Shown one piece after another: positions 4,664 to 43,957 of a stretch of 64,000 bases of DNA (position 1 is the stretch's first letter; every line of letters starts with the position of its first letter). Both the position numbers and the translations under genes were made by a program. Where the stretch lies: contig JAQWOP010000010.1 in the NCBI GenBank assembly GCA_029245795.1, positions 37,143-101,142 on the forward strand. The letters run 5' to 3'. This DNA is from Hyphomicrobiales bacterium (lineage in GTDB: Bacteria > Pseudomonadota > Alphaproteobacteria > Rhizobiales > TMED25). Below the pieces are notes generated by a model. That model ran no database searches. It was given only the letters and a program-made list of their open reading frames with translations, and had not been told where the DNA came from.

Positions 4664-5268
4664 TCTATATAACCACCCCTCCTAAGAAAATCTAATAGCT
4701 CTATAATGGAGATCCCTTGAATAGAAAATAAATCATTGCCTATCTTTTCAAAGAGGTTAATACCTTTACCTTCGATCTCATATCCACCAATAATAGAGAA
4801 AATATTCTCTTTCATATCTGTAATGTAATTTTGGATATATCTATCATTTAGTTGCCTCATTTTCATTTCTTGAATGGAAATATTATACCAAACTTCTTCT
4901 AAGTTTCTTATACATACAGTGCTTGTTATTAATTTATGATATTGACCACTTAACTCTTTGATCTGATTGGAAGCCTCCTCGACGTTTTTCGGTTTTAGAT
5001 ATATTTTTTTATTAAAAAAAAGAACTTGGTCGCATCCTATTATTAGATCATTTTTATAGTTTTTAGAAACACTCATAGCCTTTTCAAAAGCCAGTCTATA
5101 CACAAGTTCTTTTATTAATTCCAATCTTAAATCCATACTTAAATATGCATTTTGCAGATCACTCTCATCATAATCCGATGCAATATTTATGTAATTAATA
5201 CCTGTATTATTTAAGAGCTTATTTCTAATAATACTCTTAGATGCTAGAATTATTTTTGGTTTCATCAC
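4660..5268 (-). CDS. maf: Maf-like nucleotide pyrophosphatase
   Basis: IILASKSIIRNKLL, IIGCDQVLFFNKKIYLKP, YEIEGKGINLFEKIGNDLFSIQGISIIELLDFLR. Confidence 0.9.
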   Translation of the reverse strand: MMKPKIILASKSIIRNKLLNNTGINYINIASDYDESDLQNAYLSMDLRLELIKELVYRLAFEKAMSVSKNYKNDLIIGCDQVLFFNKKIYLKPKNVEEASNQIKELSGQYHKLITSTVCIRNLEEVWYNISIQEMKMRQLNDRYIQNYITDMKENIFSIIGGYEIEGKGINLFEKIGNDLFSIQGISIIELLDFLRRGGYIE

Positions 5269-6094
5269 TGTCTGAATTCCTTTTTCTTAATAAGGACATA
5301 ATCTCCGCTGCCGTTTCTTCTATTGATCGTCTTGATACGTCAATAACAGGCCAAGCATTACTCTCAAATAATTTTTTTGCTTTTACAATTTCTTCACTGA
5401 CATATCTTCTATCAACATAATTAGTATCATTTTCAGCATTTAAAGCCATTAATCTATTTTTTCGAATTTGTATGACCCTTTCAGGTGTGGCAATAAGTCC
5501 TATTATAAGTGGTTTTTGTACTTCATGAAGTTCTTTTGGAAGAGGAATACCCTCAATGAAAGGTATATTAGCTGTCTTGATACCTCTGTTGGCAAGATAA
5601 ATACTTGTTGGTGTTTTGGATGTCCGGCTGACACCAACTAAAATTATATCTGCAAGGTTTAAATCGCCAGAAATAGCTCCATCATCATTTGCTAGAGTAT
5701 AATTCATTGCATCAATTCTTTCAAAATATTCAGAATTTAATTTATGCTGACCACCTATTATAGAGTTACCTTTTATCCCATAAATGTTAGTTATTGATTT
5801 GTGTATTGATTCAAGAGGATCTATAAGTGGAATATTTAAATTCTCACATAAGATCTGTAAGTTTTTACGTAATTCAACATTATTTAAAGTGTATAGGACA
5901 ACACCAGGATCTTTTTTAATAGAATCAAAAACAAGATCTATTTGTTTTTTGCTCCTGACGAGTGAATGCATGTGTTGTTGAAATGTAAGATTTTTATATT
6001 GTACTAAGACTGCTTTTGCAATGGTACTTAATGTTTCCCCTGTAGAGTCACTCACCATATGAATATTATAATTTAGTTTATTTTCAACAGCCAT
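5237..6094 (-). CDS. Pyruvate, water dikinase/phosphate dikinase regulatory protein (PPSR, DUF299)
   Basis: HMVSDSTGETLSTIAKAVLVQY, ILVGVSRTSKTPTSIYLANRGIKTANIPFI, WPVIDVSRRSIEETAAEI. Confidence 0.94.
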   Translation of the reverse strand: MAVENKLNYNIHMVSDSTGETLSTIAKAVLVQYKNLTFQQHMHSLVRSKKQIDLVFDSIKKDPGVVLYTLNNVELRKNLQILCENLNIPLIDPLESIHKSITNIYGIKGNSIIGGQHKLNSEYFERIDAMNYTLANDDGAISGDLNLADIILVGVSRTSKTPTSIYLANRGIKTANIPFIEGIPLPKELHEVQKPLIIGLIATPERVIQIRKNRLMALNAENDTNYVDRRYVSEEIVKAKKLFESNAWPVIDVSRRSIEETAAEIMSLLRKRNSDSDETKNNSSI

Positions 6095-6468
6095 TGTTAA
6101 TAAGTACCCCTAGCATGTGCATTACTATAGATAATTAGTAAAGTACGTATTTATTATACATTTAATTAAATATTAATTAACAATAATAACGATGTGGATA
6201 AAAAGATATGTCTTATTAAGACGTGTCTATTAATACATTTAAACATATTTTATCCACAAATAATTAACAAGTTATTCATCAAATGCATATAGTAAACCAG
6301 TTGGTTTTATGAGATAATAAATGAATATTTATTATTTAATATATTTTTTAATAACTTTACTAACAGTTTAATATTGATAACTAAATATGTTTATAAGATG
6401 TGTAAAAAATATAATTACCATGATTCACAGAGTTAACAACAACAACAACCTTATTTAAGATAGTAGTT
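6095..6468. other. Putative chromosomal replication origin (oriC)
   Basis: 374-bp AT-rich gap between the DUF299 gene (RP001-type) and hemE. Perfect DnaA boxes at 6193-6201 (TGTGGATAA, minus) and 6250-6258 (TTATCCACA, plus); weaker matches at 6272-6280, 6399-6407 and 6421-6429; genes diverge from it. Confidence 0.85.
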
Positions 6469-7494
6469 ATGACAACATTGTGTAAAATCTATGAAGGAAA
6501 AAAAATTTGGCCACCTCCTGTATGGTTAATGAGGCAAGCAGGTAGATATTTACCTGAATATAATAAAGTGAGAAAAAAAGCAGGTAGTTTTTTAGATCTT
6601 TGTTATAATCCGAGGTATTCTTCAAAAGTTACATTACAACCTATAGAAAGATTTGACCTAGACGCTGCAATCATATTTGCAGATATACTCTTAATAGCTG
6701 AAAACCTTAATCTTTCATTACGTTTTGAGGATAATATAGGTCCAATAATATCACCTAATTTATCTAATAAATTTAGTTTAGAAAAATTTATTGAAGTAGA
6801 AAACTCACGACTAATGAACGTCATGGAATCAATCAGTCTAACTCGTGATGTTCTTGAGAAAGATAAAAGTCTGATAGGTTTTTGTGGGGCTCCTTGGACT
6901 GTTTTGACATACTTAATTAATGGTACCTCGACTAAGGATTTTAAATATTGCATTAAATGGATGCATAACAATAAAATTCTAGCTAATGAATTATTAGATT
7001 TACTTGCAAAACTATCAACGGATTATCTAAGTTTACAAATTGAAGCTGGTGCGGATGTTGTGAAAATTTTTGATACGTGGGCCGGGGTTTTAGAAAGAGA
7101 AGATTTTATGAGCTGGGTTGTTGAACCTACAAGTAAAATAGTATCATCTTTAAAAAGAAAATATAAAAATATTCCAATTATTGGTTTTCCTAAGGGAGCA
7201 GAATATTTATATAAGGAATACATTGATTTAACAGGAGTTGATATTATAGCACTTGATCAAGATTTAAATAGAGATTTTTGTAGGAATATTCTTCAGAAAA
7301 GTGCAATATTACAAGGTAATATATCGCCAAATTTATTGAGAACTGGTGGTATAAAACTCGAGAATGATATCCACGATACTATAGAAAAATTCAGAGATAA
7401 ACCCTTTATAATTAATTTAGGGCATGGAATAATAAAAGACACACCAATAGTAAACGTTGAGAATCTTATAAAGATTATCAGAAATTATAATTAA
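6469..7494 (+). CDS. hemE: Uroporphyrinogen decarboxylase
   Basis: PPVWLMRQAGRYLPEYNKVRKKAGSFLDLCYNP, FADILLI, GFCGAPWTVLTYLI, INLGHGIIKDTPIVNVENLI. Confidence 0.96.
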   Translation: MTTLCKIYEGKKIWPPPVWLMRQAGRYLPEYNKVRKKAGSFLDLCYNPRYSSKVTLQPIERFDLDAAIIFADILLIAENLNLSLRFEDNIGPIISPNLSNKFSLEKFIEVENSRLMNVMESISLTRDVLEKDKSLIGFCGAPWTVLTYLINGTSTKDFKYCIKWMHNNKILANELLDLLAKLSTDYLSLQIEAGADVVKIFDTWAGVLEREDFMSWVVEPTSKIVSSLKRKYKNIPIIGFPKGAEYLYKEYIDLTGVDIIALDQDLNRDFCRNILQKSAILQGNISPNLLRTGGIKLENDIHDTIEKFRDKPFIINLGHGIIKDTPIVNVENLIKIIRNYN

Positions 7495-13779: not shown

Positions 13780-14409
13780 GTGAAAGAAAAAGATTGGACA
13801 TCGAAAGATATAAGAGAGAAATATAATGTTTCACGTGAAACAATGGAAAAACTCGATTGCTACGTGACGCATTTACTAGAATGGCAAAATAGGTTTAATT
13901 TAATAGGAAATTCTACAGTTGATAATATATGGGGTAGACATGTATTGGACTCATTGCAGTTAATGACCTACATACCAAAAGATTTTAAAGTATTAATAGA
14001 TATAGGAACAGGTGCAGGTTTACCTGGTTTTATACTTGCTATATATTTTGCTGAATCTAATAAAGATATATATCTTGTAGACTCTAGTAAAAAAAAATGC
14101 TCATTCCTCAATTTTGTTTCTGTAAAATGTGACACTCCAGTTATTGTGTTACCTGAACGTATTGAGAATTTAAGTATAAAAGGAAAAATAAAAGCTGATA
14201 TAATTACAGCTCGTGCTTTCTCTGGTATTGATAATATACTAAAGCTATCTAAGCCATACACTTCTCCTCAAACAAAATATTTGCTACAAAGAGGAGCTAA
14301 AGCAAAAACAGAATTGGCCAAATTAAATATTTCATCCCTAATGAATATAGTTTATCATAATAGTATCCTTGATAAGGACTCTTATATTATTGATTTTGAG
14401 TACAGGTAA
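13780..14409 (+). CDS. rsmG: 16S rRNA (guanine-527-N7) methyltransferase RsmG (GTG start)
   Basis: YNVSRETMEKLDCYVTHLLEWQNRFNLIGNSTVDNIWGRHVLDSLQL, DIGTGAGLPGFILAI. Confidence 0.95.
   Translation: MKEKDWTSKDIREKYNVSRETMEKLDCYVTHLLEWQNRFNLIGNSTVDNIWGRHVLDSLQLMTYIPKDFKVLIDIGTGAGLPGFILAIYFAESNKDIYLVDSSKKKCSFLNFVSVKCDTPVIVLPERIENLSIKGKIKADIITARAFSGIDNILKLSKPYTSPQTKYLLQRGAKAKTELAKLNISSLMNIVYHNSILDKDSYIIDFEYR
13827..13842. promoter_or_regulatory. parS: parS centromere site (ParB binding)
   Basis: Exact 16-bp palindrome TGTTTCACGTGAAACA inside rsmG, just upstream of parAB. Confidence 0.95.
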
Positions 14410-15239
14410 TGTTTGGATTTGGAACTAAAAAAAATAACAGTAAGACAAAAGTCTTAGCTTTTGCTAATCAAAAAGGTGGTGTTGGAAAAACGACAACAAC
14501 AATTAACCTAGGTTGTGCAATAGCGGGTACGGGTCAAAAAGTGCTTATTATTGATCTGGATCCCCAGGGAAATGCTTCAACTGGTTTAGGCGTCAATAAA
14601 GAGGATAGAAAGTATTCTATATATGATGTTTTGACCCAAGAAAAGAATATCAATGATACAAAATTAAATACGATTGTTAATAATCTTTATCTTGTTCCTT
14701 CAACACTTGATCTTTTGGGTCTTGAGTCAATATTGGCCAATGAAAAAGATAAATCTTATAAGCTCAAAAGAGCTATTGAATCATTACAAGCTTCTAGTAA
14801 TAGTTATTATGATTATATCCTTATTGACTGCCCACCATCATTAAACTTATTGACTATAAACGCCCTTGTTGCTGCTAACTCAATAATTGTACCTTTGCAG
14901 TGTGAGTTTTATGCATTGGAAGGACTGGGCCAGCTTCTAGAAACAGTTGAGCATGTGAAGCAAAATCTTAATAAAGATCTATTAATCCATGGTATTCTTC
15001 TAACTATGTTCGATGAAAGAAATAACTTGTCAGGACAGGTAGCAAAAGACGTACGAGAATTCATGGGAGATAAGGTATACAAAACAGTCATTCCAAGAAA
15101 TGTTAGAGTCTCTGAAGCGCCCTCTTATGGCAAACCAGTTATTCTCTATGATCATAAATGCCAGGGATCAATAGCATATATGAATCTGGCAACAGAAGTT
15201 TTAAGAAAAGATAAAGCAGTATTAAGTAATAGCCCATAA
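14409..15239 (+). CDS. parA: Chromosome partitioning protein ParA
   Basis: VLAFANQKGGVGKTTTTINLGCAIAGTGQKVLIIDLDPQGNASTGLG, YDYILIDCPPSLNLLTINAL. Confidence 0.97.
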   Translation: MFGFGTKKNNSKTKVLAFANQKGGVGKTTTTINLGCAIAGTGQKVLIIDLDPQGNASTGLGVNKEDRKYSIYDVLTQEKNINDTKLNTIVNNLYLVPSTLDLLGLESILANEKDKSYKLKRAIESLQASSNSYYDYILIDCPPSLNLLTINALVAANSIIVPLQCEFYALEGLGQLLETVEHVKQNLNKDLLIHGILLTMFDERNNLSGQVAKDVREFMGDKVYKTVIPRNVRVSEAPSYGKPVILYDHKCQGSIAYMNLATEVLRKDKAVLSNSP

Positions 15240-15255
15240 TAGAAAGGTATTTATT

Positions 15256-16137
15256 GTGTCAGATGAACAACCAAATGTAACTAAATCAAGATTAGGAAGA
15301 GGTTTAGCTTCTTTAATCGGAGATGCTCCAAAAGACTTGTCCTCAAATATGGATGATGCCCCTGTAAATATTAGCACATTGCCAATTGAGCAAATTCAGG
15401 CAAATAAACAGAATCCAAGAAGTGTTTTTTCTGAGGATGAATTAGTTGATCTTGCAAATTCTATTAAGGAAAAAGGAATTCTTCAACCAATAATTGTAAG
15501 ACAGAGAGGTAACGAAGAATCGTATGAAGTGATAGCTGGTGAAAGAAGATGGAGAGCCGCTCAAATTGCACAATTAGACAACGTACCAGTTATTATAAAA
15601 AATCTATCTGATGATGATGCTCTTGAAATTGCAATCATAGAAAATGTTCAGAGAAGTAATCTGAATCCTATTGATGAGGCCTCAGGTTATAAAAGGTTAA
15701 TGGATATATATAACTACACGCAGGAGGATCTATCGCAAGTTATAGGTAAAAGTAGAAGCTATATAGCCAATATATTAAGGCTAGAAAACCTTCCATTGAA
15801 AGTACAGGAATATTTATCTTCTGGGAAATTGACAATAGGTCATGCTAGGGCTCTAATTTTGAGTGAGGATGCAGAAAATTTAGCCAATTTAGTTATTTCA
15901 AAAGGGCTAAGTGTTAGACAAACTGAAGAACTTGTAAAAAATTCTAATCTGCCAGCCTCTAAAATAACTAGTAAAAAGGTTAAAGATTCAAATATAAAAA
16001 ATCTTGAAAAGCTAATGACTGATAATCTTGGTCTAAAAGTGGAGATTCAAACAAAAGATAACAAATCTGGTAAAGTACTAATAAGTTATTTAGATAATAG
16101 CCAATTAGATAATATTAAGAAGCGTTTAATAAGTTAA
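15256..16137 (+). CDS. parB: Chromosome partitioning protein ParB (GTG start)
   Basis: KSRLGRGLASLIGDAP, IQANKQNPRSVFSEDELVDLANSIKEKGILQPIIVR, VIAGERRWRAAQIA, KSRSYIANILRLENLP. Confidence 0.97.
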   Translation: MSDEQPNVTKSRLGRGLASLIGDAPKDLSSNMDDAPVNISTLPIEQIQANKQNPRSVFSEDELVDLANSIKEKGILQPIIVRQRGNEESYEVIAGERRWRAAQIAQLDNVPVIIKNLSDDDALEIAIIENVQRSNLNPIDEASGYKRLMDIYNYTQEDLSQVIGKSRSYIANILRLENLPLKVQEYLSSGKLTIGHARALILSEDAENLANLVISKGLSVRQTEELVKNSNLPASKITSKKVKDSNIKNLEKLMTDNLGLKVEIQTKDNKSGKVLISYLDNSQLDNIKKRLIS

Positions 16138-21056: not shown

Positions 21057-22334
21057 ATGAAAAAACTATTTATTATACTATCTTTGATGATATTTTCTGG
21101 ATTAGCTAACGCAGCTGATGCTCCAGTTGACTCAATACCGCCAGTAAGTTTTAATATAGGTGGTGAAGTAGTTCTTGAAGGTCTTCAGATAAGTAAGTGC
21201 GAAGATCAGGCCTCTGCAGCAGATGTATTTGCAAATGAGCTTGATGATACGGATGATGCTTCTATTACTGCGGATCTCGTAACCTTAGGATTTGCTTCCG
21301 GTACATTATTAACTGATGACGCTTCTTATACTTTTGATGTTAGTCCATGTGGAGCTGATAATCTAAATGAAACTTTCCCACATTTTTCGACAAAGAAGAA
21401 ATTAACATTTGATGCAAGTGCAACATTATATAATGGTCTCCAAGTTGCATTTTCAGATGAGTTAAATCTTGCCGATATTGATGATGAAGAAAGTGCGTTT
21501 GAACTTTCAGTGGGCGGTGCCTTTGGTACAGTCTTATTTAAAGATAATACATCTGCAGTTGATAGCATGCTAATTGGGACTTCTGGATCTGGAGCGGATA
21601 CGGATATTACACTTACATCAGATGGACATATAAAAACAACATCTGGAGGTGATGGTGGTATTAATGTAGTTTATTTTACACCTTCATTTGCTGGAATGGA
21701 CTTGGCCTTGGGATATAACCACAATACAGATAACCTGGGATTAGATAGCTCAGAATTTAAAGATACTATCTCGGTTGGGTTTGGTTATGAAACATATATA
21801 GGGGATGTAGTACTATCTCTGGGAGGTGGAGTTGAGAAAGCATCCAGTGGCACCGATACTCCTGCTAATTGTTTAACAACAGATGAAGCAACAGCTGAGA
21901 GCGCAACAAGCGCCGATACATTTTTTGATGGATTATATGGATCATCTCGTTGCGGAAATGAAACACTTTCTGCTATTGGGGCGGATCTTGCTCTTGGCAA
22001 CTATACAATATCATCAGCATACTCTTCACTCGATACAACAGATGGAGGAGATACAACAGTTTGGTCAGTAGGCTTAGGTAAAACAATAAATGATACAGAT
22101 TATACTATTGGCTACACTCTTGAAACATTAGATTATGCTAGAGAAAAAGTTAACGGTAGTGAGGTCGAAGACCAATCAAAAATATTAATGCTTGAGGCGG
22201 TTCGACCAATTGGTGAAGGTATAGACCTTGGTTTAAATATATCTAATGCTGAAGTGGATAATGCATCACAAGAACTCGGTAATGGAGTCAAAGATGCCTG
22301 GCGCGCTGGGGTATCTTTAACTCTCGGTTTCTAA
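21057..22334 (+). CDS. Outer-membrane porin (alphaproteobacterial beta-barrel type)
   Basis: Signal peptide ...GLANAAD; acidic repetitive beta-barrel pattern (FELSVGGAFGTVLFKDN), C-terminal aromatic VSLTLGF*; homologous to the next CDS. Confidence 0.82.
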   Translation: MKKLFIILSLMIFSGLANAADAPVDSIPPVSFNIGGEVVLEGLQISKCEDQASAADVFANELDDTDDASITADLVTLGFASGTLLTDDASYTFDVSPCGADNLNETFPHFSTKKKLTFDASATLYNGLQVAFSDELNLADIDDEESAFELSVGGAFGTVLFKDNTSAVDSMLIGTSGSGADTDITLTSDGHIKTTSGGDGGINVVYFTPSFAGMDLALGYNHNTDNLGLDSSEFKDTISVGFGYETYIGDVVLSLGGGVEKASSGTDTPANCLTTDEATAESATSADTFFDGLYGSSRCGNETLSAIGADLALGNYTISSAYSSLDTTDGGDTTVWSVGLGKTINDTDYTIGYTLETLDYAREKVNGSEVEDQSKILMLEAVRPIGEGIDLGLNISNAEVDNASQELGNGVKDAWRAGVSLTLGF

Positions 22335-22548: not shown

Positions 22549-22572
22549 GTACACAGTGTGTGCATTGTGTAC
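22549..22572. repeat. Imperfect 24-bp inverted repeat in porin leader (GTACACAGTG-TGTG-CATTGTGTAC)
   Basis: 10-bp arms with one mismatch (G-U in RNA) around TGTG; related TACACAATG at 22517-22525. Confidence 0.6.
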
Positions 22573-22632
22573 GTTATTTTATATAAGATAACTTTTTTAT
22601 TAACTTACTTATTTACGATGAAAGGAAATATC

Positions 22633-23898
22633 ATGGATAAGAAAATACTACTCGGTGGAGCAGCAGCGCTTCTTATGGCCGGTTCTTTTGTAGCCGCACC
22701 TGCTTCTGCATCTATCGAGCTTTCAATTGGCGGTGAAGCTAAATTGACAGCTCTTATGGACGACCATTGTAATGTCGATCAAGCTGATGATACAATTAAT
22801 ATACTAGCTGACTGGGTTGACACAACTTATGGTGGGAATGATAATGCGACTGCTACTACTAAAGTCCTTATCGACGCTATCATGGATGACGTTAACACTG
22901 ATGTTGTTGCATCAGATGATGATTCTGACTTAGATGCTATCACTTACATAGATAGTGGTTGTGGTTCTGATGCAGAAGATAATCCTGTTCTTGGCTTTGG
23001 TAAAGAGCTATCAATTGGTGCTGAAGGAACATTAGCTAACGGTTTAACTGTATCATTCTCAGATACACTAGATCTAACAGATACTTCTGCTGAAGAAGGT
23101 GCCTTTGAACTATCACTAGGTGGTGCATTCGGTACTTTAACATTTAAAGACGGTGCTGACTCAGCTGTTGATGCTGCAATGGTTGGTGATACATCAGGCG
23201 CAGACGTAACTGGTTTTGACCTAGGTGGTCATGTTCTAGCTACAGCTGGTACAGACGGCACAGGTATACTATATCAAGCTCCTTCAGTAGGTGCCCTTGA
23301 TCTTTATATCTCATATGCTCCAAATGCTGACGACTCAGGTCTAGATGATTCAAACTATCAAGACACATTTGCATTCGGTGTTACATACGCTGCTGACATG
23401 TTGACAGTTGGTGCTGGTTTTGAAAGTGCATCAGCTGAATCTGCTTGTACTTCAGGTGGTACACTTGACGGCGATACTTCAGCTGCCGATGCTTATGACA
23501 TGATCTTCGACGGTGAAACAGACTGTGGTGATTTATCACTAATGGCTGTTGGTATGGAGATGAGTGCAGGCGATATCGCTCTTTCAGCTGCATGGTCAGA
23601 ACTAGACACAGATGAAGCAGATCTAACAACAATGTCAATCGGTGCATCAACAGATGTAGGTGATTACAGTGTTGCTGCTGGCTGGGCTAATTCTACTAAA
23701 GCATATGGTTTAGAAAGCATTGAAGACGAGCAAACAGTTATTAATGTTGAGCTATCAACTGCATTAGGAGATGGCGTAGATCTAGGTCTAAACTTCTCAA
23801 CTAATGATGTTAGCGTAGTTTCAGAAGAAAATGGTGCAGGTCACGCTGGTGATATGAACAACTATTTTGCTGAACTATCTTTAACAGTTGGTTTCTAA
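22633..23898 (+). CDS. Outer-membrane porin, paralogue of the preceding gene, likely highly expressed
   Basis: Start placed at ATG 22633 (MDKKILLGGAAALLMAGSFVAAPASAS signal peptide, AAAGGA upstream) rather than the ORF-track start 22558; FELSLGGAFGTLTFKDG, C-terminal ELSLTVGF*. Confidence 0.85.
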   Translation: MDKKILLGGAAALLMAGSFVAAPASASIELSIGGEAKLTALMDDHCNVDQADDTINILADWVDTTYGGNDNATATTKVLIDAIMDDVNTDVVASDDDSDLDAITYIDSGCGSDAEDNPVLGFGKELSIGAEGTLANGLTVSFSDTLDLTDTSAEEGAFELSLGGAFGTLTFKDGADSAVDAAMVGDTSGADVTGFDLGGHVLATAGTDGTGILYQAPSVGALDLYISYAPNADDSGLDDSNYQDTFAFGVTYAADMLTVGAGFESASAESACTSGGTLDGDTSAADAYDMIFDGETDCGDLSLMAVGMEMSAGDIALSAAWSELDTDEADLTTMSIGASTDVGDYSVAAGWANSTKAYGLESIEDEQTVINVELSTALGDGVDLGLNFSTNDVSVVSEENGAGHAGDMNNYFAELSLTVGF

Positions 23899-39950: not shown

Positions 39951-41279
39951 TTATTTTTTTTCGAGTATGGAAATAAAGAAACCATCATTTCCACCATCTG
40001 GTAATATACCTGGCAGTATTCTCATAAATCCTTCTTTTCGGATCGATTTTTTAAACTCAGGTAATTTTTCTAGAATAATTTTTCTTAATTTGATATCTGT
40101 TCTTTCTTTTAATATTCTATTTATTTGATCTTCACCCTCTTCTGGCTCTAAAGAGCATGTGCAATAAATCAAAATACCACCTACTTTTAGCATATTAATT
40201 CCATTATTTAATAGTTTCTCTTGATTGTGTGTGAAAAATTCCAAATTATTTATTTTCCTGCGTAAAATATCTGGATTTCTTCTGATTACACCCGTTGAAC
40301 TGCAAGGAGCATCAATTAGAACACCATCCACTTTTTCTTTTGGGAACCAAATTGTTCCATCAGCATGAACAATTTTAGCTTTATATTTCAACCTATCTAA
40401 ATTTTCTTTTAGTATTTTTAATCTTTCTGCACTTTTATCCACTGCCACAACTATAGCACCTTTAGATAATAAACTAGCTGTCTTTCCGCCCGGTGCCGCA
40501 CATAGATCTACAAATAGTTTATCTTTCAAATTATCTTCAATTAACTTAATTGGAATTGAAGCTGACACGTCTTGGATCCACCATAAACCTTCGTTATAGA
40601 ACTTTATATTTGGGATATATGAATAATCATGCAATCTTATAGATCCTGTCGATAATACAGAACCATTTAAATCTTTAATAACCTCTAGACTGTAATCTTT
40701 AAGACTAATGTCAAGGGGGGGGGATGATAATAGTGTATCTGATATTGTCTTTATTTCATCGTTAGTATAAAAATTCTTCCATCTATCTCTTATCCAATCT
40801 GGTAATAGGTCAAGAGGGTTCATTATTTGGGATAATATAGTATCTTTATCATCACTTATTCTTCTTAAAACGGCATTTACAAGCCCTCTTAGCTTCGATG
40901 ATTTTTTATCATTTTTTGTTAGCTCAATTGCACTATTCACTGCTGCATAAGGGGGGGTATTAAGGTAAAGTATTTGGCATACGGATGTAAGTAATAGAAA
41001 ATGAATTCTTCTAGAATGACTCTCAATTGAGTTCTTTAAGTATTTTGCTAAAATAATCTCAATATGACCCCAACGCCTCAAAGTTGTCATCATAATCATC
41101 ATACAAAAAGCTATATCTTCTTTTGGTAGAGTTAGATATTTATCACTTTGTAATTTTTTTTTCAAGCTTTGGTCAGGATTAGCACCTTTTTCAATAATAT
41201 CTATAAGTATATCAATAACAAGTTCTCTAGATTTTAACCCATTAGATTTTTTTTGATTTTCATTAATTATTATATTCAT
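39951..41279 (-). CDS. rsmB: 16S rRNA (cytosine-967-C5) methyltransferase RsmB-like
   Basis: NusB-like N-terminus, FVDLCAAPGGKTASLL, VLIDAPCSSTGVIRRNPDI, LIYCTCSLEPEEGEDQI. Confidence 0.93.
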   Translation of the reverse strand: MNIIINENQKKSNGLKSRELVIDILIDIIEKGANPDQSLKKKLQSDKYLTLPKEDIAFCMMIMMTTLRRWGHIEIILAKYLKNSIESHSRRIHFLLLTSVCQILYLNTPPYAAVNSAIELTKNDKKSSKLRGLVNAVLRRISDDKDTILSQIMNPLDLLPDWIRDRWKNFYTNDEIKTISDTLLSSPPLDISLKDYSLEVIKDLNGSVLSTGSIRLHDYSYIPNIKFYNEGLWWIQDVSASIPIKLIEDNLKDKLFVDLCAAPGGKTASLLSKGAIVVAVDKSAERLKILKENLDRLKYKAKIVHADGTIWFPKEKVDGVLIDAPCSSTGVIRRNPDILRRKINNLEFFTHNQEKLLNNGINMLKVGGILIYCTCSLEPEEGEDQINRILKERTDIKLRKIILEKLPEFKKSIRKEGFMRILPGILPDGGNDGFFISILEKK

Positions 41280-41340
41280 ATTTAATTTATTTATTTTAAT
41301 TACTATATTAATATTGAAGCATTATTTAGAAATATAAACT

Positions 41341-41526
41341 ATGGCTAATAAAAAAGAAAAAAAACTTTCTCCTGAAGCAAAAAGAGCGCTTGCAGAAGCT
41401 GAAGAGAGAAGAAAAAAGAATAAAGATTCTAAGTCTGTCATGCCAAAAGAAATAAATGGCCCACAAGGACCTGAACCAACAAGATATGGTGATTGGGAAA
41501 GAAAAGGCATAACTTCTGATTTTTAG
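41341..41526 (+). CDS. DUF1674 / SDHAF4-like succinate dehydrogenase assembly factor
   Basis: Small ORF ending KEINGPQGPEPTRYGDWERKGITSDF, the family signature. Confidence 0.9.
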   Translation: MANKKEKKLSPEAKRALAEAEERRKKNKDSKSVMPKEINGPQGPEPTRYGDWERKGITSDF

Positions 41527-43482
41527 TTAGTTGTTCTTTCTATTTTTTATTAATTCTTCAACAACAGCTGGTTCTGCGAGAGTTGATGTGTCACCAAGAT
41601 CAGAGTAATTATTTTCTGCAATTTTTCTTAGTATTCTTCTCATTATTTTACCAGATCTTGTTTTTGGTAAGCCAGTTGTTAGTTGGATATGATCTGGTGT
41701 TGCAATTGGGCCTATTATCTCTCTTACATTTTGAACTAATTCTTGCACTATATCTTTTTCTTCTATTTTTATAGCAGTTCTGAGTGTAACAAAAGCATAG
41801 ATTCCTTGACCCTTTATAGGGTGAGGAAAACCAACTACTGCTGACTCAGAAACTTTCTTATTTGATACTAAAGCTGATTCTACCTCAGCTGTTCCAAGTC
41901 TATGACCTGAGACATTTATGACATCATCGACTCTTCCTGTTATCCAGTAGTAGCCATCTCCATCTCTTCTGCAGCCATCTCCAGTAAAGTACATTTCATT
42001 ATATGTTGAAAAATAAGTTTCTTCAAATCGTTTGTGATCTCCATAAACTGTTCTCATTTGACCTGGCCATGAGTCACAAATTACAAGATTACCGGAACAC
42101 TCTCCTTCTAACTTTTTCCCTTTTGCGTCTACAATTGCTGGTTGTATTCCAAAGAATGGGTAGGTAGCGGATCCTGGTTTTTGATCAATTGCTCCTGGCA
42201 TTGGTGATATCATAATACCGCCAGTTTCTGTTTGCCACCATGTATCAACGATAGGAGATTTTTTTTCACCAACTATATCATAATACCAATTCCATGCCTC
42301 TGGATTTATTGGTTCACCAACTGTACCAAGAAGCTTAAGGGTGCTACGATTTGTAGATTGTACATATTGATCACCAGCCCCCATCAGAGCTCTTATAGCT
42401 GTAGGAGCTGTGTAGAAAATATTTACTCCATATTTATCAATAATTTCCCAACATCTAGAAGCACTTGGGTAGTTTGGTAATCCTTCATATATTACCACTG
42501 TTGCTGCATTTGAAAGAGGTCCATAGACAACATAACTATGGCCAGTTATCCAACCAACATCAGCTGCACACCAATAAATATCATTTGGCTTATAATCAAA
42601 AATATATTGATGAGTTATAGATGCATAAACTAGATAGCCGCCAGATGTATGTAAAACACCTTTTGGTTTTCCTGTTGAACCCGAAGTATATAATATAAAT
42701 AGAGGGTCTTCTGCATTCATTTCTTCAGGGTGGCATATATCAGCTACCTGTTTTTTTTCTTCATGATACCAATGGTCAATTGAATCATCCCAAGAAGTAT
42801 TGTTTCCTGTATGTCGGACAACTAAATTTTTTTCAACATTAGTCCCCATTTTTTTTGCAATTTCTATCGCTTTATCTACATTATTTTTTAAGGGTATTAG
42901 TTTTCCTCCTCTAATACCTTCGTCTGAGGTTATTATAATCTTTGACTGACAGTCATCAATTCGACCTGCTAAGGCTTCTGGAGAAAAACCACCAAAAACA
43001 ACAGAATGTACTGCTCCAATTCTCGCACAGGCCAGCATAGCGAAAGTAGCTTCTGGAATCATTGGCATATAAATTGTGACTCGATCTCCTTTTTTTGTAC
43101 CTAGTTTTTTTAGAACATTTGCAAATTTACATACATTTTTATAGAGATCTTCATACGTGAATATTCTAGTTTCTTTGCCATTATCACTTTCCCATATTAG
43201 GGCTTTTTTTTCTGGATTTTCTTTTACATGTCGATCAATACAGTTTGCTGAAACATTTAGTGTTCCGTCTTCAAACCAGCTAATATTTATATTATTTTTT
43301 TTATAGGAAGTATTCTTTATTTTTGTATAAGGTTTAATCCAGTCAATTCTTTTGCCATGTTCAGCCCAGAATTTCTCAGGTGAAGATATGCTCTCTGCAT
43401 ATAGAGTTTTATATTTTTCATTATTTATATAGGCATTTCTGGACCATTCAGAGCTTACTTTATTTCCTGTAAAATTATTCAT
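41527..43482 (-). CDS. acs: Acetyl-coenzyme A synthetase
   Basis: [73 protein letters not shown]. Confidence 0.97.
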
Positions 43483-43525
43483 ATTATTTCCTACTGTAAG
43501 TGTATTTAATTATTAAATTTATTTA

Positions 43526-43957
43526 TCATTGCGGATCGCCCATATTGCATATGATATTCCATTCATCATTTTTAACTGGTTGGACAGATAGTCTAGAATT
43601 TTTTACTAAAATCATTTCAGAAAGTTTGGGTTTATTTTTAATTTCTTCTAGGCTAACAGGATTTTTGAAACTTTTATGGTAGGCAAGGTCAACACAGCGC
43701 CATGTTTTATTATCTGTAGTTGTATCCATATGTGCTTCTGCAATTACTGACGTGATTCCAACAATAGTTTTTTCTTTAACAGAATGATAGAAAAAGCCTA
43801 AATCACCTAATTTCATTTTATCCATATTATTCCTAGCTTGGTAATTTCTTACACCATCCCATTCAGTGCCAGTAGCTCCTGCATGTATTTGATCTTGCCA
43901 GGACCAGGTTCCGGGCTCTGATTTAAAAAGCCAAAAAGCCATAATGGACGACCTCAT
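43526..43957 (-). CDS. EVE domain-containing protein
   Basis: FWLFKSEPGTWSWQDQIHAGATGTEWDGVRNYQARNNMDKMKLGDLGFFYHS. Confidence 0.93.
   Translation of the reverse strand: MRSSIMAFWLFKSEPGTWSWQDQIHAGATGTEWDGVRNYQARNNMDKMKLGDLGFFYHSVKEKTIVGITSVIAEAHMDTTTDNKTWRCVDLAYHKSFKNPVSLEEIKNKPKLSEMILVKNSRLSVQPVKNDEWNIICNMGDPQ

Follow-up and report, generated by a model that had tools for sequence, protein, structure and literature searches.

Is the 374-bp gap between ppsR and hemE, in the 64,000-nucleotide stretch of DNA analyzed here (the window), the chromosomal origin of replication, as had been predicted from its sequence? We examined all 24 contigs of the fragmented genome assembly (1,357,382 bases) and conclude that the gap is almost certainly an oriC of the known hemE type, on the grounds of a unique pair of DnaA boxes, a strand-corrected step in GC skew and synteny. 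Both the location of the origin and the DnaA-box anatomy of the gap are computational results.

The ppsR-hemE gap and its relatives

The gap has a GC content of 21%, against 32% for the genome, and Pfam searches bore out the flanking genes as ppsR (COG1806/DUF299) and hemE (Table 1), the neighbors between which a hemE-type oriC is found. The DUF299-hemE junction had been named as a known alphaproteobacterial origin site, rightly so given the precedents in Caulobacter and Rickettsia (PMC1914354). Since the location is exactly that of relatives such as Caulobacter, the finding is correct but expected; it fixes the origin for a streamlined, small-genome alphaproteobacterium otherwise represented by a fragmented assembly, so that the position of the gap can be used to read gene dosage and growth rates based on coverage.

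With a HemE alignment query of genome contigs we gathered 110 hemE loci. Of these, 69 have ppsR and hemE as a divergent pair separated by about 360-850 bp; they come mostly from named Alphaproteobacteria and include Mesorhizobium, Rhizobium, Devosia, Nisaea, Roseomonas and Erythrobacter. Among the 110 loci fetched, the pair was missing from those of Bradyrhizobium and from nearly all of Rhodobacterales. DnaA-box words were the most enriched 7- and 8-mers of the ppsR-hemE gaps, with TGTGGATA occurring in 24 of 64 gaps (0.3 expected).

Table 1. Features of the proposed origin and its surroundings (window coordinates).
Feature	Position	Strand	Basis or remark
ppsR, kinase/pyrophosphorylase, DUF299	5237..6094	-	Pfam Kinase-PPPase PF03618, E = 1.8e-88
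ppsR-hemE intergenic gap, proposed oriC	6095..6468	.	exact-box pair, skew step, synteny
Two overlapping TTAA-N7-TTAA, possible CtrA sites	6162..6180	.	motif match
3-bp spacer and five NAN triplets beside inverted box 6193-6201	6175..6192	+	DnaA-trio (BUS) pattern
Exact DnaA box TTATCCACA	6193..6201	-	not conserved as exact box in genus
Exact DnaA box	6250..6258	+	genus-conserved as TTATMCACA or TTATCTACA
Least stable AT-rich tract of gap, candidate unwinding element	6314..6353	.	stability ranking
Weak DnaA box TTTTACACA	6399..6407	-	2 mismatches
G-box-like DnaA site TGATTCACA	6421..6429	+	2 mismatches; deeply conserved position
(AAC)5 tract, (GTT)5 on opposite strand	6435..6449	+	directly after G-box-like site
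hemE, uroporphyrinogen decarboxylase	6469..7494	+	Pfam URO-D PF01208, E = 9.5e-98
Exact parS palindrome TGTTTCACGTGAAACA	13827..13842	.	exact match
parA and parB	14409..16137	+	domain search

DnaA boxes

The two exact boxes in inverted orientation on which the original prediction was built are present and are the only ones in the window. Genome-wide, TTATCCACA occurs in 12 copies (19 expected under a first-order Markov model), and the gap is the sole 380-bp stretch of the 1.357-Mb genome with two of them. Their chance expectation in the gap, predicted to be well under 0.01, was computed as 0.005, and the probability of at least two exact boxes there, given the observed genome density, is about 5e-6. 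The gap is also the best-scoring 380-bp segment of all 24 contigs (8.25 vs 4.75); a stronger cluster elsewhere, including at dnaA, had been named as a check on the prediction and was not found in these contigs. The absence of another DnaA-box cluster is likewise what a hemE-type oriC leads one to expect.

In the alignment of relatives, 6250-6258 is the one exact box that is conserved in the genus; the inverted box at 6193 was found there only in degenerate form, in the closest relative. Exact boxes differ among relatives, some close ones having none at all. Of the three weaker boxes that had been predicted, those at 6399-6407 and 6421-6429 hold up, whereas 6272-6280 (TTATTCATC) has three mismatches and was rejected. 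In three relatives the block of 6399-6407 contains an exact box, TGTGGATAA, about 12 bp closer to ppsR.

GC skew and other locations for the origin

Raw cumulative GC skew had no clear minimum at the gap, either on its contig (C24, where the gap spans 43,237-43,610) or on contig 1 of the nearest relative (G003). As raw skew is dominated by gene strand, we did not use it and fitted instead a per-gene step in third-position G versus C, with separate levels for the two strands. On C24 the optimum for a change from C-rich to G-rich falls at 42,458 (interval 41,191-43,464), adjoining the gap within about 1-2 kb. Steps of that sign on the remaining contigs do not come near it in strength (LR/phi 37 on C24 vs ≤8.4, the latter at a contig end). 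In a random-effect fit of the same genome, the preferred position was 1.2-2.4 kb to the left of hemE, and the gap fitted worse by 4-6.5. Since these fits are off by kilobases, skew positions the origin to a few kb and not to the base; to that precision, and once strand is corrected for, the gap shows the skew switch of a hemE-type oriC. As to the GC-skew check proposed with the prediction, the strand-corrected step supports the gap; raw cumulative skew was not decisive. By mean skew, the majority of the large contigs separate into a positive and a negative class, as would be expected of two replichores. The strongest step of opposite sign, from G-rich to C-rich, is near 5.3 kb on contig C3 (LR/phi 9), a candidate for the terminus region.

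Two other locations have to be weighed against the gap. As dnaA shares its contig, about 19 kb away, the origin could lie there, the gap being merely a divergent promoter regulated by DnaA. Some 670 bp upstream of dnaA, a box with one mismatch lies next to a TTA-repeat tract, which would fit such an origin, but around the gene there are just two one-mismatch boxes and no exact one, the dnaA-dnaN gap is devoid of boxes, and a skew step at dnaA (C24 22.8-24.2 kb) is rejected in this genome (scaled LR 21), in G003 and in a further relative, G006 (deficits 19-39 across the three), the rejection still amounting to about 20 or more in all three when two porin-like genes are dropped. We therefore consider an origin at dnaA very improbable. 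The upstream box (TTATCAACA, C24:22101-22109, followed by TTATTATTATTCTTC) possibly serves dnaA autoregulation.

The porin-like genes bear on the other location, about 18-19 kb beyond hemE, to which the first fits in G003 and G006 had assigned the step (in G003 some 18 kb to the hemE side, a displacement owed largely to these genes); in the uncorrected G003 fit the gap was worse by a scaled 19-23. Yet at the displaced step all three genomes carry this gene pair with its strong preference for C-ending codons. When the pair was dropped, a choice made only after the first skew fits had been seen, the step of G006 returned to the gap and the interval of G003 became broad (5.5-43 kb), the gap still being worse by 5.6. 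Together with the step that adjoins the gap in the genome studied here, this makes an origin beyond hemE scarcely credible. In the window, the pair corresponds to two adjacent plus-strand genes (21057-22334 and about 22549-23896) whose C-ending third positions distort the local skew; their label as porin-like was judged by eye.

AT-rich tract, DnaA-trio pattern and CtrA-type sites

An AT-rich tract predicted near 6317-6360 is real: among the 40-mers of the window, 6314-6353 ranks in the least stable 0.04%, and it provides the low-stability tract of a hemE-type oriC. The inverted box also resembles the B. subtilis-type basal unwinding system, in which a DnaA box is followed by a short spacer and at least three NAN triplets (PMC8287927): at 6175-6201, an exact box, a 3-bp spacer and five such triplets are found. 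However, this box is one of 5 among the 12 exact boxes of the genome with at least four NAN triplets within 16 bp, and since such triplets are common beside boxes in this AT-rich genome, the fit is weak and not significant. As for the (AAC)n tract next to hemE, it fits the trio rule poorly.

The pair of overlapping TTAA-N7-TTAA sites reaches weak significance (P = 0.02 for at least two such sites in shuffled gaps) and is kept only in the nearest relative, G003. Among the proteins encoded by the genome are GcrA, three members of the HU/IHF family and an orthologue of CtrA, which scored 412 bits against a cut-off of 350. Control of the origin by CtrA is possible.

A conserved module next to hemE

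An alignment of ten members of the genus and family shows conserved blocks in the gap, the longest of which spans roughly 6385-6450, immediately ahead of hemE, and has the pattern ...AATAATTACC....CACAG.GTAACAACAACAAC. The site at 6421-6429, which had been called weak, and the (AAC)5 tract after it form the most deeply conserved module of the gap. TGATTCACA differs by one base from the Caulobacter G-box, which we take to be TGATCCACA. The T-to-G class of this box has been described (PMC4468827). The sole GANTC of the gap, a CcrM-type methylation site, is at 6422-6426, inside TGATTCACA. Repeats of at least four AAC units occur at three places in the genome, one of them being the (AAC)5 tract, a candidate for single-strand contact with DnaA or for an unwinding region.

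Many Alphaproteobacteria have the same layout upstream of hemE, a box and then an A/C-rich strand. In distant relatives a similar box mostly lies 95-175 bp ahead of the hemE match; around it, mean A+C is 0.74-0.78 at +10 to +29 and 0.41-0.45 at -40 to -21, and this contrast is positive in 20 of 21 loci. Compared with boxes outside the gaps, the A+C content that follows is 0.69 vs 0.52 (p = 4e-9, for sequences that are not independent). An AAGATTCTTTTATT-like word, resembling the E. coli 13-mer, recurs past the A/C-rich strand in order-level hemE gaps (for example L044, L051, L055 and L226); none was seen in this genus.

To our knowledge, the opening site of hemE-type origins is not settled for Alphaproteobacteria. 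The layout resembles E. coli R1 and the adjacent unwinding element, where DnaA holds the T/G-rich complement. We tentatively suggest, with considerable reservation, that hemE origins might share an unrecognized opening module composed of a hemE-proximal DnaA site, an A/C-rich strand and AT-rich DNA. The site would often be TGATCCACA or TAATCCACR, the A/C-rich strand would adjoin it directly over about 25-30 nt, and the G/T-rich complement would, by analogy, be comparable to the TTGTT/TTATT strand held by DnaA in E. coli; the (AAC)5 tract would represent an extreme form. This is a concrete, testable guess as to where hemE-type origins open.

The same block could instead be a promoter or leader of hemE, for instance a translation enhancer, a reading that rivals the proposed anatomy and not the gap being the origin. 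In its favor, a TATAAT word is present at 6410-6415, and in the genus the distance from the block to the hemE ATG is 20-50 bp. In distant relatives, however, a similar layout is found about 95-175 bp ahead of the hemE match, which indicates that its position follows the box rather than the start of hemE, and the rarity of such AAC repeats in the genome also speaks against a leader element. We regard this explanation as possible but doubtful. The hemE-proximal box with its A/C-rich strand is the part of the gap that merits further work.

Proposed mechanism

For the origin as a whole, we infer that DnaA binds the gap, which melts and fires. DnaA would occupy the strong boxes at 6250 and 6193 and spread onto weaker sites, including the G-box-like one at 6421. 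AT-rich DNA would then open, with 6314-6353 and the hemE-proximal tract 6430-6465 as the alternative sites; in the latter, DnaA could hold the (GTT)n strand. Helicase loading would be followed by the departure of two forks. The new origins would be segregated by parS and parAB; these had been predicted close to the origin and were indeed located 7-10 kb away.

Comparison with known origins

Cori of Caulobacter crescentus has the same flanking genes, hemE and DUF299/COG1806, and shares with the gap DnaA sites, including a G-box-like one, and an AT-rich tract; genes for CtrA and GcrA are likewise present in the genome studied here. The gap differs in having two exact high-affinity boxes, the sites of Cori being two G-boxes and very weak W-boxes (PMC4468827), and in the possible CtrA sites, of which there are two overlapping matches here and five in Cori. 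The in-silico origins of Rickettsia and Wolbachia are likewise AT-rich gaps adjoining hemE in which DnaA boxes and possible CtrA sites occur (PMC1914354). In Wolbachia, ppsR is no longer beside hemE, while the arrangement is intact here.
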